Assembly: GCF_010669145.1 (NCBI RefSeq)
Contig: NZ_CP048632.1
Coordinates: forward strand, 1,178,001-1,242,000
From: Rhizobium oryzihabitans
Lineage (GTDB): Bacteria; Pseudomonadota; Alphaproteobacteria; Rhizobiales; Rhizobiaceae
Reading direction: 5' to 3'
Length of the DNA stretch: 64,000 nt
Shown: positions 2,468 to 31,013 of the stretch, in pieces
Layout of the letters: the number at the start of each line of letters is the position of its first letter
How positions within the stretch are numbered: the stretch's first letter is position 1
Notes under the pieces: model-generated
What the model was told of the DNA's origin: nothing
Databases searched by the model: none
Seen by the model: only the letters and a program-made list of their open reading frames with translations
Translations under genes and position numbers: made by a program

Positions 2468-2943
2468 CCCTGAAACGCCTCCATGATCTTTTTTTCAAAG
2501 CCATTTCTGATGTCGTTCTTCGTGGCTTCGATATCGCTGCAATCGATTGCGTGGACGTAAAGCGTTTTTCGGTCCGCCGAAACATCGACCGACAGCGTGC
2601 CGGGGGTCAAAGTGATGAGGTTGGCGAGCAGCGTGATCTGGAAATCCGTCGTCACCGTCAGCGGATAGGCGAATATGCCGGGCTTCACGTCGAGTCTCGG
2701 CCGCGTCACCAGCACCGCCACCTTCCAGGCGGACAGCGCCAGCTCCTTGAAGAACAGCAGCACGAGCGACAGCACCCGGGTAAGTCGCAGCCAGTGATTA
2801 TCGCCGCCCGGTAGCTGGTGGCGGATGAGGCCGAGCGCCAGCGTCGAAACGATGAGGCCGAAGACGATATTCGCCAGTGAGATGCTGCCGCTTACCGCAA
2901 GCCACACGGCGACGAAGAGCAGCTGGACAATATAGAGGCTCAT
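2464..2943 (-). CDS. phaE: PhaE/MrpE cation/proton antiporter subunit
   Basis: A 159-residue MnhE family protein. Two or three N-terminal hydrophobic segments (to about residue 75) precede a cytoplasmic domain with the family pattern [15 protein letters not shown]. It is required for assembly and activity of the antiporter. Its start codon overlaps the phaD stop by 4 bases and its stop overlaps the phaF start in the same way. Confidence 0.92.
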
Positions 2944-4517
2944 GGTTTGCCCCCCTCGGAAAAGACGGACTGGATATAGGCCTGCGGATCAGCCAGCCCG
3001 GCGGCCGCCTGCTGGCTGAGATTGAGCAGGCTTTCGGGAAACAGGCCGAAGCCCACCACCAGCGCTGTCAGGCCCACCAGCGGCACGAGAGAGGGTGCAG
3101 AGAGTGGTGACGCGGGCGGCGCGGGAGTTTGGCCGGCCGTCGCCACTGCCGGACGCCAGAAGCACAGAAGGAAGAGCCGACCAAAGGCGATGGTGGCGAT
3201 GAAGCCGGAGGCAAGGATGGCGGCTGCAAGCCACCAGGCGCCGATATCGATCGCCGATTTGACGAGGACCGCCTTCGGCCAGAAGCCGGAAAAGGGCGGC
3301 AGGCCGGAGCCGGCGAAAAACAGCGCGAGCGCGAGCGCCGAGAACCAAGGCGCCTGCCGGTAAAGGCCACTGAGCGAGCGCATGCTGAAGCTGCCGCCGA
3401 GGCGGGCGGCATGGCCGGCAGCAAGATAAAGCGCCGTCATCAGCACCATGGAATGCAGCGCGTAGAATATCGCGCCTGATACGCCGGAGGGCGTGCCGAT
3501 GGCGATGCCCGCCATCATGTAACCGATGCCTGATATGACGACATAACCGAGCATCCGGCGAATATCGTTCTGGGCCAGCGCGCCCATGGCGCCCAGCACC
3601 ATGGTCAGCGCCGCGGAGATGGCGATGACGATGCTGAGTTCCTCACGCTCGACCGGAAACAGCATGACCATGACGCGCAGCAGCGAATAGATGCCGACCT
3701 TGGTGAGCAGGCCGCCGAACAGGGCGGAAACGACGATTCGCGGTGTGTGATAGGAAGCGGGCAGCCAGAAATTCACCGGAAATGCCGCCGCCTTCATGGC
3801 GAAGGCGAGCGCAAAGAGGCTGGCAAGCGTCATCAGCGGTGCAGTACCACGTAGCTCAGTCGCCTTCTGCGCGATATCGGCCATGTTGAGCGTGCCGAAG
3901 ATGGCGTAGAGATAACCGACCGTGATCAAAAACAGCGTTGTGCCGATGAGGTTCAGAATGGCGTATTTCAGCGCGCCGTCGATCTGCTCGCGTGTCGAGC
4001 CGAGCACGATCAGCCCGAAGGACGAAATCAGCAGCACCTCGAACCAGACATAGAGGTTGAAGAGGTCGCCGGTCAGGAACGCGCCGGTAACACCGGCCAT
4101 CAGAAGCATCAGGAAGGGATAAAAACCGTATCGCCTGCCGCTATTGTCGATATCGGCGCTGGCGTGGATGGCGCCGGCGAGCGCGACAATCGCAGCCGCG
4201 AGCGATAGCAGGGCACCGGTGAGGTCGGCAGTGAAGGCAATGCCGAAGGGCGGCAGCCAGCGGCCCATGACCATGGTGAACGGCCCTTGCGTCACGACCT
4301 TCCACAGCAATGCGGCATCGAGAAGCACCAGCAGGGAAAGCGCCGTGATGGCAATGGCCGCATGCCGGCGGATCGCGTGGCGCATCATCATGAGAATGGC
4401 GCCTGCGCCGATACAGAGCGCGACGGGCAGGATGATCAGCCAGTCGGCAAAGGGCACCGGAGCGACAACGAGCGCTGCGGAAAGATCGGAAACTGCGGAG
4501 GTGGTGGATGAAGCCAT
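2940..4517 (-). CDS. phaD: PhaD/MrpD antiporter subunit, NuoM/NuoN-like
   Basis: A 525-residue polytopic membrane protein of the proton-translocating NADH-quinone oxidoreductase M/N family, as in MrpD. It is one of the two large subunits thought to conduct ions. The conserved membrane acidic residue is seen as Glu160 in LYVWFEVLLISSFG, and the lysine helix around AFAMKAAAFPVNFWLPASY is present. The C-terminus carries an Ala/Pro-rich linker (about 462-475) before a last helix. It starts 21 bases after the phaC stop and ends overlapping phaE. Confidence 0.94.
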   Translation of the reverse strand: MASSTTSAVSDLSAALVVAPVPFADWLIILPVALCIGAGAILMMMRHAIRRHAAIAITALSLLVLLDAALLWKVVTQGPFTMVMGRWLPPFGIAFTADLTGALLSLAAAIVALAGAIHASADIDNSGRRYGFYPFLMLLMAGVTGAFLTGDLFNLYVWFEVLLISSFGLIVLGSTREQIDGALKYAILNLIGTTLFLITVGYLYAIFGTLNMADIAQKATELRGTAPLMTLASLFALAFAMKAAAFPVNFWLPASYHTPRIVVSALFGGLLTKVGIYSLLRVMVMLFPVEREELSIVIAISAALTMVLGAMGALAQNDIRRMLGYVVISGIGYMMAGIAIGTPSGVSGAIFYALHSMVLMTALYLAAGHAARLGGSFSMRSLSGLYRQAPWFSALALALFFAGSGLPPFSGFWPKAVLVKSAIDIGAWWLAAAILASGFIATIAFGRLFLLCFWRPAVATAGQTPAPPASPLSAPSLVPLVGLTALVVGFGLFPESLLNLSQQAAAGLADPQAYIQSVFSEGGKP

Positions 4518-27848: not shown

Positions 27849-27888
27849 CCCGCTTGACAGATTTTAGATTCGGGCGCATTTGATTGGC

Positions 27889-27942
27889 ATGATCAACGAA
27901 CGCGCACCCATCTCCTGCTCGTACTTTTGGGCCTACCTTTAA
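27889..27942 (+). CDS. Putative 17-residue leader peptide upstream of a GNAT gene
   Basis: The frame MINERAPISCSYFWAYL ends with TAA directly against the first arm of a competing hairpin set. A TTGACA (27854-27859) with an 18-base gap to a poor -10 (CATTTG) would start transcription at or near the ATG, so the peptide may be leaderless, as known for rhizobial trpL. No Shine-Dalgarno is present. The aromatic Ser-Tyr-Phe-Trp run would place a slow or arrested ribosome over the hairpin switch. It has no homology that I recognise. Confidence 0.55.
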   Translation: MINERAPISCSYFWAYL

Positions 27943-28000
27943 GGGCGGCTCGACAGATCATATTGTCAACAAGCCGCCGTCAGGCGGCTTTGTTGTTTTT
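27943..28000 (+). terminator. Putative attenuator with mutually exclusive hairpins
   Basis: Segment 1 (GGGCGGCT, 27943-27950) and segment 3 (GGCGGCTT, 27983-27990) can each pair with segment 2 (AAGCCGCC, 27971-27978). Pairing 2:3 makes a GC-rich terminator with loop GTCA followed by TGTTGTTTTT; pairing 1:2 would prevent it. The leader stop codon lies immediately before segment 1. It is 42 bases upstream of the GNAT start. It might alternatively be a plain terminator of pip. Confidence 0.65.
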
Positions 28001-28042
28001 CAAGCGTCCTGACGGCACCGATAAAACCGAAGGACCAGCGAA

Positions 28043-28531
28043 ATGACCGAAGATAGCTCCCTTACACTGGAAAGACCGCCCGTCGTCATTATTCGTGGCG
28101 CGCGCAAGACGGATCTGCCCGAACTCAACGAGATGATCACCCTGCTTGCCGCCTACCATGGCGATGCGGCAGCGATCACGCCGGCGAAGCTGGAACGCGA
28201 CCTGTTCGGCCCGCTTCCCTGGGTGCATGGGCTGGTGGCGGAAGCCGATGGTGAATTGATCGGCTACGCCCTGCTTCTGCCGCTCTACAGGGCGCAGGAA
28301 GGCCGGCGCGGGCTTGAGCTGCATCATCTCTACGTGCGTGACGGCCATCGTGGCCATGGCACCGGCCAGCACCTGGTTTCCCGCGCGCGCGACATCGCCA
28401 AGCGGCTCGGCTGCGACTATCTTTCCGTCAGCGCCACGACCGGCAATGTGGCGGCGCATCGTTTCTACGAAAACATGGATTTCGCGCCCCGGCCGGTCAC
28501 CGGCATGCGCTACATGCAGTCTATCGCCTGA
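28043..28531 (+). CDS. GNAT family N-acetyltransferase
   Basis: A 162-residue acetyltransferase of the spermidine/aminoglycoside-like GNAT branch. The acetyl-CoA loop reads VRDGHRGHGTGQHL (about 97-110), and the C-terminal AAHRFYENMDF motif closes the fold. The substrate is unknown. The ribosome site AAGGA is present. Its upstream region carries a leader peptide and attenuator-like hairpins, which suggests induction when translation is disturbed and hence a possible antibiotic- or toxin-acetylating role; that is inference. The DJ-1 gene follows by 21 bases and is probably co-transcribed. Confidence 0.88.
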   Translation: MTEDSSLTLERPPVVIIRGARKTDLPELNEMITLLAAYHGDAAAITPAKLERDLFGPLPWVHGLVAEADGELIGYALLLPLYRAQEGRRGLELHHLYVRDGHRGHGTGQHLVSRARDIAKRLGCDYLSVSATTGNVAAHRFYENMDFAPRPVTGMRYMQSIA

Positions 28532-28552: not shown

Positions 28553-29119
28553 ATGACACGGATTGCGATTGCGCTCGCGCAGGATTTTGCGGACTGGGAA
28601 CCGGCGCTGCTTGCTGCTGCGGCGCGCAACTATCTCGGCGTCGAGATCGTTTACGCCACGCCGGATGGTGGGCCCGTGACATCGATGGGCGGGCTGAAGG
28701 TTACGCCCGACACAACCTATGACGCGCTCGACCCTGACAATATCGATGCGCTCGTCATTCCCGGCGGCCTCAGCTGGGAAAAGGGAACGGCTGCCGATCT
28801 TGGCGGGTTGGTGCAGCGGTTTCGCAAGAAGGACCGGCTGGTTGCCGGCATCTGCGCGGCGGCAAGCGCGCTCGGCGGCACGGGCGTCCTTGATGACGTC
28901 GCCCATACCGGCAATTCGCTGACCTCGCATAAGGCCTATCCGGCCTATCGCGGCGAGAGCCTTTATCGCGACCAGCCGAAAGCGGTCAGTGATGGCGGCA
29001 TCATCACGGCAGCCGGCAGTGCGCCGGTCAGTTTCGCGGTGGAAATTCTGAAACACCTCGGCCTCTTTGGTCCGGAAGCCGAGGCGGAACTTGGAATTTT
29101 TGCGGCGGAGCACCGGTGA
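28553..29119 (+). CDS. DJ-1/PfpI family protein
   Basis: A 188-residue class I glutamine-amidotransferase-like protein. The nucleophile elbow GICAAAS holds Cys101, and the conserved acidic residue lies in the first helix (DWEPALL, Glu16). This group includes glyoxalase III/deglycase-like and stress proteins such as YajL/YdeA. No His of a full protease triad is obvious. ACGGAGACGG precedes the ATG. It directly follows the GNAT gene, which suggests a shared stress response. Confidence 0.88.
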   Translation: MTRIAIALAQDFADWEPALLAAAARNYLGVEIVYATPDGGPVTSMGGLKVTPDTTYDALDPDNIDALVIPGGLSWEKGTAADLGGLVQRFRKKDRLVAGICAAASALGGTGVLDDVAHTGNSLTSHKAYPAYRGESLYRDQPKAVSDGGIITAAGSAPVSFAVEILKHLGLFGPEAEAELGIFAAEHR

Positions 29120-29158: not shown

Positions 29159-29276
29159 CCTCATTCCTGTGCTTGTCACGGGAATCCAGCCAGCCCAAGT
29201 CCTTGGGCTGAAAAGACTCATCCCGCTGCGCGAGAGCCGCATCGACTGGATTCCTGTGACAAGCACAGGAATGAGG
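29159..29276. repeat. Mosaic palindromic repeat, family A, copy 3 (inverted core)
   Basis: The ends match family A, but the core between them runs in the opposite direction to copies at 10511, 34385 and 47130: the CAGCCCAAGTCCTTGGGCTG hairpin comes first. It lies between two convergent transcription units. Confidence 0.9.
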
Positions 29277-30543: not shown

Positions 30544-30721
30544 GGTGACCCCTCTTACGGCGCGACCCCGCGCCTTTAGACGCGGCGGAACGGCAAGAAG
30601 CCGCGCAGCCGCATGCGATACACTTCACCACGGGGATAACGAGACTGACACAGGGAGCCACCTTGCCTGGCCACCCTGAAATTCCGCTCTTCCGGACACC
30701 CCGCCGGCATGGACATTTCCG

Positions 30722-30932
30722 TAATGGCAGGTCTCCTGGCTTACGGGTCAAAACCTGAAACGCCTTCCCGGCGTCACCCTCACCTTGATCGGGAACCTCG
30801 GTTCCCCGCGAGATGGCTTACCAGTGGCATTTCGTTTCAGGCTCTCCGCTCACAGTTGCGGGGGCAGCCACGAATGAGGATGTCTCCCTATCGTGTTCCC
30901 TTTTCACCTTCCGGAACGCCCGGAAGGAACCA
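30722..30932 (-). promoter_or_regulatory. Cobalamin (adenosylcobalamin) riboswitch
   Basis: Read on the minus strand, the 5' part holds GGTGAAAAGGGAACACG and GCTGCCCCCGCAACTGTGAG, then GCCACTGGTAAGCC, GGGAAGGCG, and the B12 box AGCCAGGAGACCTGCC near the 3' end (30725-30741). These are the conserved cobalamin riboswitch elements in order. It lies 180 bases before cbtB and should switch cbtBA off when cobalamin is abundant. Confidence 0.95.
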
Positions 30933-31013
30933 TCACAGGATTGTTATCCGACGGGTGGGTGCGGGAGTCAATGGCGGGCCTGCTTTCCAACCGCACGCCG
31001 TCGCCTCCACCTT

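Follow-up and report, generated by a model that had tools for sequence, protein, structure and literature searches.

A GNAT acetyltransferase gene of Rhizobium oryzihabitans, probably together with the DJ-1/PfpI gene behind it, is very probably controlled by a ribosome-mediated transcription attenuator that senses the charging of tyrosine, phenylalanine and tryptophan tRNAs. Coordinates below refer to the window, the whole stretch of 64,000 nucleotides that we analyzed, and features lie on its + strand unless marked otherwise. Upstream of the acetyltransferase gene (28043-28531), a -35 promoter hexamer TTGACA (27854-27859) precedes a leader peptide frame, MINERAPISCSYFWAYL (27889-27942 with the stop), whose 17 codons run from ATG to CTT (27889-27939) and are followed by TAA (27940-27942). 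Codons 12 to 14 of the frame are TAC TTT TGG (Tyr12-Phe13-Trp14, 27922-27930). Behind the stop codon, GGCGGCT occurs at 27944-27950 (segment 1) and again at 27983-27989 (segment 3), and both copies can pair with the single AGCCGCC at 27972-27978 (segment 2), which is thus common to a predicted antiterminator, with segment 1 as its 5' arm, and a predicted intrinsic terminator, the segment 2:segment 3 hairpin with a U-run (27968-28000). An earlier note on this DNA had picked out the TTGACA, the 17-codon frame and the three heptamers, all correctly placed. To these we add a hairpin (27927-27953) formed by segment 1 and the end of the peptide frame, which we call segment 0; the near-invariance of the Tyr-Phe-Trp codons; and a conserved post-terminator segment 5, GCGTCCTGACGGC (28004-28016), whose complement occurs both in the terminator loop (27976-27984) and in the Shine-Dalgarno sequence AAGGAC of the acetyltransferase gene (segment 6, 28030-28035). 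A loop sequence, GATCAT (27956-27961), is complementary to the predicted 5' end, ATGATC. The leader region scored above no gathering threshold in Rfam 15 (best local score, 14.3 vs. 60 for RcsR1). The sole family match of the Rfam scan in the window was a cobalamin riboswitch on the minus strand (30709-30949, 119.2 bits), and inverted repeat arms of the type CTCATTCCTGTGCTTGTCACGGGAATCCAG, spotted by eye at 29160-29275, probably represent an intergenic repeat element.

We propose that transcription begins at the leader ATG. When Tyr-, Phe- or Trp-tRNA is scarce, the ribosome would stall at codons 12 to 14 and cover segment 0, leaving segment 1 free to pair with segment 2 while segment 3 has yet to be transcribed; no terminator would form, and transcription would read through into the acetyltransferase gene. 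Under adequate charging, a ribosome at the stop codon would cover segment 1, the 2:3 terminator would form, and termination would leave a short, sRNA-like transcript. In the read-through RNA, segment 5 would either hide the Shine-Dalgarno sequence or pair with the free segment 3, and translation would likely be tuned in the same sense as termination. The frame, the promoter spacing, the pairings and the codon content of this attenuator are supported by comparison among sequences; the transcript start, the stalling, the termination and the translational layer we infer.

A search of genome contigs with the GNAT protein returned 32 loci, four of them short archaeal matches and 28 (L002-L029) full-length relatives of 70 to 98% identity, those at 98% coming from Agrobacterium and related records. 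The leader frame was present in all 28, ending CSYFWAYL, CTYFWAYR or similar. A covariance model, R1, found related elements of far more divergent sequence in other genera. Seventeen weak R1 matches (L086-L097 and L099-L103) were discarded as false positives on reading the DNA, five of them (L093, L096, L100, L102 and L103) looking like stretches of one protein gene, and R1's tally of 70 of 247 Rhizobiaceae genomes, the places of which were read in part, therefore overstates the element. A second model, R2, matched 59 places in 56 of the 247 genomes, a figure that includes a spurious match in G212 (L168, rejected on reading the DNA). When the GNAT protein was searched against the same 247 genomes, 66 places were found, 55 of them at E <= 2.1e-33 and the next at 3e-18. 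An R2 match lay directly upstream of every one of these 55 orthologues and of none of the 11 weaker places, and the protein search detected no orthologue in the other 192 genomes; since the leaders share descent, neither such counts nor the permutations reported below are independent. The four R2 places without the acetyltransferase were a second tyrS gene in each of G154 and G216, an orphan leader in G071 and the spurious match in G212. The expectation of the earlier note that the frame would be conserved upstream of GNAT orthologues in Rhizobiaceae was thus borne out, and on this comparative evidence the leader is a real, conserved attenuator.

The same survey disposes of the possibility, raised by the earlier note against its own reading, that the hairpin is simply the terminator of pip and the open frame a product of chance. 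The pip gene does end just upstream in the window, but it was found in only 9 of the 58 loci examined, most of which have the element without it; L003, L004, L006, L009 and L011, for example, carry the element with no pip within 2.5 kb upstream. The frame, the promoter and the alternative pairings are conserved as well. We rejected a chance frame or pip terminator on the grounds of this conservation, the linkage to the acetyltransferase in 55 of 55 cases and the presence of pip in few loci, and regard it as having virtually no chance of being correct.

For the promoter and the start of the frame, we compared 82 leaders, namely the window, the 28 loci of the GNAT relatives and 53 loci from the R1 search, which together comprise 79 distinct sequences. 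The frame was 16 or 17 codons long in all 82. An exact TTGACA stood 34 to 37 nt 5' of the leader ATG in 75 of the 79 distinct sequences, one more had TTGACT, and the three misses were the tyrS-type leaders L070, L072 and L073. The -10 hexamer was weak, and TATAAT was not conserved. An SD-like 4-mer preceded the leader ATG in only 11 of the 79. Because the spacing between TTGACA and ATG is fixed and SD-like 4-mers are rare, a leaderless start of the frame, as first suggested in the earlier note, is well supported. The rhizobial trpL RNA likewise begins at its own ATG (PMC7298713, PMC10117765).

The architecture that the earlier note had described as a trp-leader-like set of three segments was upheld by folding and by covariation. 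The terminator hairpin (27968-28004) folded at -17.1 kcal/mol (z = -4.9 vs. shuffles) and the alternative hairpin (27941-27980) at -16.7 kcal/mol (z = -4.2), and the hairpin between segments 0 and 1 appeared in the minimum free energy structure of 27890-28004. We then applied a swap test, in which duplex energies in 26 representatives were computed with each species' own partners and with partners swapped between species over 5000 permutations. For each pairing we recorded the own and swapped means, the number of permutations at least as good and the number of species whose own energy equaled or bettered the median swap; the permutations ignore relatedness, and the resulting figures are not strict probabilities. 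The strongest signals came from the peptide end with segment 1 (own -15.4 vs. swapped -12.9 kcal/mol; 0/5000; 22/26 species), the terminator loop with segment 5 (-18.5 vs. -15.5 kcal/mol; 0/5000; 24/26) and segment 5 with the Shine-Dalgarno sequence (-13.5 vs. -9.9 kcal/mol; 0/5000; 23/26), where the strings compared overlap by the three stop-codon bases in the first case and by three bases in the last. The terminator pairing 2:3 (-15.1 vs. -14.6 kcal/mol; 2/5000; 24/26) and the antiterminator pairing 1:2 (-13.5 vs. -12.9 kcal/mol; 60/5000; 25/26) also responded to swapping, and the pairing of the start with the loop (ATGATC:GATCAT) did so weakly (-8.7 vs. -7.9 kcal/mol; 49/5000; 16/26). Four control pairings were unaffected (2873 to 3918 of 5000; 11 to 15 of 26 species), in keeping with the hairpin covariation that the earlier note had called for. 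Changes on both sides of the terminator loop/segment 5 pairing can be read directly from the sequences, which are GCCGTCAGG/CCTGACGGC in the window, GCCATCAGG/CCTGATGGC in L055, GCCGCAAGG/CCTTGCGGC in L074 and GCCTTCGG/CCGAAGGC in L063. In some species the pairing is imperfect, e.g., with a mismatch in L050 and L071.

These data also bear on whether the element might be chiefly an sRNA or the gene of a trans-acting peptide, its position before the acetyltransferase gene being incidental. Both rnTrpL and peTrpL act in trans (PMC7298713), and nucleotide conservation is very high among the leaders of close relatives, as such a function might lead one to find. Against this, the strict linkage to the acetyltransferase (55 of 55) and the covariation of segment 5 with the Shine-Dalgarno sequence argue for selection in cis, and we consider a primary role in trans highly improbable.

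We modeled the states of the preferred attenuator in the 26 representatives by treating the ribosome as a footprint mask of assumed size. For RNA extending to the start of segment 3, the mean predicted probability of the antiterminator, P(1:2), was 0.98 with the Tyr codon in the A site, 0.86 with the ribosome two codons past Tyr (the Trp codon in leaders with the order YFW) and 0.00 with the ribosome at the stop codon; at the position two codons past Tyr, it was 0.04 in L073 and 0.00 in L071. With no ribosome the mean was 0.55, with 8 of the 26 representatives at 0.05 or less and the window at 1.00. Window RNA that is not being translated is thus predicted to adopt the antiterminator ahead of the synthesis of segment 3, and so preventing initiation on the leader frame might likewise induce the gene in the window. 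Once segment 3 was available, the terminator was favored in every state (means of 0.98 to 1.00, the lowest value being 0.59), and the switch must therefore be kinetic, operating during transcription, as in trp.

Holding 1:2 instead of 2:3 in the window raised the predicted probability that the Shine-Dalgarno sequence is unpaired from 0.05 to 0.56. Across the 26 species the means were 0.36 with 2:3 and 0.46 with 1:2, the Shine-Dalgarno sequence being freer by more than 0.2 in the antiterminator state in 8 species and the effect being reversed in 2. Given strong covariation but mixed folding of the Shine-Dalgarno sequence, we treat a second, translational lock through segment 5 as likely but unproven. 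The loci of genus g81 (L083, L098 and L169) retain the leader and GC-rich hairpin but have lost the U-run, and the stem is seemingly extended; control in these loci may as a consequence be translational or Rho-dependent.

The Tyr-Phe-Trp codons were the most constant stretch of the leader peptide. Among 41 distinct Rhizobiaceae peptides, all had Tyr at position -6 from the stop and Phe or Tyr at -5, and the N-terminal half was variable. Of 53 distinct GNAT leaders, 52 contained codons for all of Tyr, Phe and Trp, the lone exception being L167 (MTEMANHTVRYFTLFR), which has YF without Trp. Trp usually stands at -4 (YFW); genera g10, g94 and g103 have it at -7 (WYF), with Thr at -4. The aromatic trio is also retained in L166, where the order is WFYY.

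Searches beyond the family recovered related leaders in front of other genes. An order-wide search of 347 genomes gave matches in 25 genomes with R1 and in 21 with R2, and a class-wide search of 289 genomes gave R2 matches in 9; searches of more than 40 genomes used stricter filters, and absence beyond Rhizobiaceae is not firm. On reading the DNA we rejected, as lacking a leader, 11 of 27 places from the order-wide R1 search (L132, L134 and L136-L144), 3 of 21 from the order-wide R2 search (L158, L160 and L165) and 2 of 9 from the class-wide R2 search (L176 and L177). Among the remaining leaders, those before tyrS in families f44, f18, f41 and f156 read YY, YFYY or YF, those before prephenate dehydrogenase-type tyrA genes in f50, f14 and f11 read YY, those before DAHP synthase genes in f35 read YFWYF (3/3), and a single trpS leader in f197 (L174) read WW. 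GNAT leaders in f118 (two genomes) and f144 read WYF (3/3). Identification of the downstream genes was by profile for tyrS (L073, L124, L126, L127 and L170) and trpS (L174), by a score above TIGR00034 for the DAHP synthases L161 and L164, from translated starts for L125, L128-L131, L133, L135 and L162, and by tyrS comparison for L070; the tyrA type of L154, L155 and L159 scored above the Pfam cut-off for PDH_N and below all NCBIfam cut-offs. Remote GNATs L171-L173 are GNATs by Pfam, and because L172, the one compared, is just 33% identical over 89 residues, we do not call them orthologues. Two further observations concern leader form. In the f35 DAHP synthase leaders (L161, L162 and L164), GGCGGC lies inside the frame and the stop codon is downstream, unlike in the GNAT leaders. 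A YF leader in f207 (L175, G847:C6) precedes a 92-residue S4-domain protein that weakly resembles the C-terminal domain of TyrRS, below the Pfam cut-off.

Within Rhizobiaceae, two tyrS genes were present in G154 and G216 and one in the other 16 of the 18 genomes examined. The G216 tyrS behind a YY leader is 86% identical to the G154 copy and 53 to 57% identical to other tyrS genes. No leader was found upstream of the housekeeping tyrS at the one locus inspected (L112). An orphan YY leader with hairpins (L072, G071:C1:2250917-2251033) has no tyrS behind it, at the place where G154 and G216 have the second tyrS.

Across the related leaders, then, codon content matches the function of the downstream gene. 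Tyr codons occurred in all of 11 distinct tyrS and 3 tyrA leaders, and Trp codons in none; Trp was found in 58 of 59 distinct GNAT and DAHP synthase leaders vs. 0 of 14 tyrS and tyrA leaders, a contrast that is not phylogenetically independent. The correspondence between codons and gene function is our strongest argument for aromatic tRNA charging as the signal, and the likeness of the GNAT leader codons to those of the DAHP synthase leaders suggests that the GNAT responds to Tyr, Phe and Trp alike.

A narrower reading, which we judge unlikely, holds that the GNAT leader was copied from an ancestral tyrS leader and senses Tyr only, with the Phe and Trp codons serving RNA pairing. Indeed, every Rhizobiaceae GNAT or tyrS leader among the 41 distinct peptides has Tyr at -6, and Tyr is in every tyrS and tyrA leader; the TGG codon of YFW leaders overlaps the stem of segment 0, L167 dispenses with Trp, and in the model a stall at Tyr gives a higher P(1:2) than one two codons on. 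Yet the Trp codon persists where it lies ahead of the Tyr codon, at -7 in WYF leaders, and in WFYY, and none of the 14 distinct tyrS and tyrA leaders carries one.

The codon evidence likewise bears on the signal suggested by the earlier note, disturbed translation, for example by an antibiotic that the enzyme might modify. In such a scheme a drug would stall the leader ribosome or block translation, and the enzyme would acetylate the drug. Many drug-modifying enzymes are GNATs, this GNAT shows sub-threshold profile similarity to several of them, and the free window RNA is predicted to form 1:2. The codons of related leaders, however, follow the amino acid of the downstream gene, and the N-terminal half of the peptide is variable, an unexpected property for a drug-arrest peptide. 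The comparison does not support induction chiefly by antibiotics that disturb translation in general, and we consider a drug-inducible attenuator very unlikely; the codons point to a signal from uncharged aromatic tRNA and not from a block of translation at large.

The fold of the acetyltransferase is nearest to spermidine/thialysine acetyltransferases (PDB 2bei, 2b3v and 2fe7; 25 to 28% identity), and both fold and sequence profile place it with the SSAT/thialysine type of the GNAT superfamily; similarity to drug-modifying profiles was sub-threshold throughout. It is no known aromatic-pathway or biosynthetic enzyme. To our knowledge, no attenuator of this kind has been found for spermidine/spermine or thialysine N-acetyltransferases. 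The DJ-1/PfpI protein (28553-29119; PF01965) matches PDB 2fex, a conserved hypothetical protein, over its full length, and it is probably the second gene of the operon; tblastn placed it next to the GNAT in 46 of the 58 loci examined. A search of the window's own genome found no type I DAHP synthase and a TyrA-like match at G000:C4:687553-688125. Our best guess, based on general enzymology, is that the GNAT acetylates a small amine that interferes with the supply or use of aromatic amino acids, e.g., a synthetase-inhibiting aromatic amine. More tentatively, we can picture a resistance circuit in which the leader polls all three aromatic tRNAs at once and the GNAT clears small amines or natural inhibitors whose effect is to deplete the cell's charged aromatic tRNAs. 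Tyramine, phenethylamine or tryptamine, by acting on the synthetases, would be of this sort, and so would an amine that inhibits the shikimate pathway. In one Rhizobiaceae genus, RNA of this class would also drive a spare tyrosyl-tRNA synthetase; the GNAT would otherwise be kept silent by an RNA with two locks, the terminator and the Shine-Dalgarno sequence. This is a possibility to which we give well under even weight.

In 2004 Vitreschak reportedly predicted, by comparative means, the leader peptides and alternative hairpins of proteobacterial amino acid operons, in work said to have covered the branched-chain, His, Thr, Trp and Phe operons; we know of no tyrS, tyrA or GNAT leaders from that work. 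The attenuator was undescribed among the matches listed from open-access papers on leaders and attenuators, with subscription papers and supplements outside that scope. Accounts of trpL/rnTrpL before trpE(G) in Rhizobiaceae (PMC7298713, PMC10117765) describe several features in common with it: a short, leaderless frame that contains sensor codons, antiterminator and terminator structures that exclude each other, and a short terminated RNA, the last being predicted here. In those accounts, trpL has several consecutive Trp codons, senses Trp and precedes a biosynthetic operon. The GNAT leader differs in having three different aromatic codons, an acetyltransferase downstream and an extra segment that can pair with the Shine-Dalgarno sequence; with one Trp codon and a GNAT behind it, it lacks the consecutive Trp codons before trpE(G) that identify peTrpL. 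The general features of trp-type attenuation are nevertheless predicted from its sequence. Both the short frame and its codons for the sensed amino acids are conserved, an exclusive antiterminator/terminator pair lies 3' of the frame (without a U-run in L083, L098 and L169), and in the model, with its assumed footprint, a stalled ribosome frees segment 1 and a terminating one covers it. For the tyrS, tyrA, DAHP synthase and trpS relatives, the regulated gene serves metabolism of the sensed amino acid; for the GNAT such a role is conjectural. A Caulobacter CDS map from ribosome profiling, in the part available to us, contains a putative leader CDS before trpS (PMC4117421). It resembles the WW trpS leader L174 in being alphaproteobacterial and before an aromatic tRNA synthetase gene, and unlike the window leader it has no GNAT behind it in that account, which gives no codons, mechanism or family for it.

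Taken together, the leaders make up an alphaproteobacterial set of attenuators for aromatic amino acids, before tyrS, tyrA, DAHP synthase, trpS and GNAT genes. The GNAT leader belongs to this set and is unusual within it in controlling an acetyltransferase. Because codon content predicts the signal, an orphan acetyltransferase can be assigned to an aromatic amino acid regulon. The polling of three amino acids, together with a segment that possibly links the choice of terminator to access to the ribosome-binding site, would extend the textbook trp scheme.
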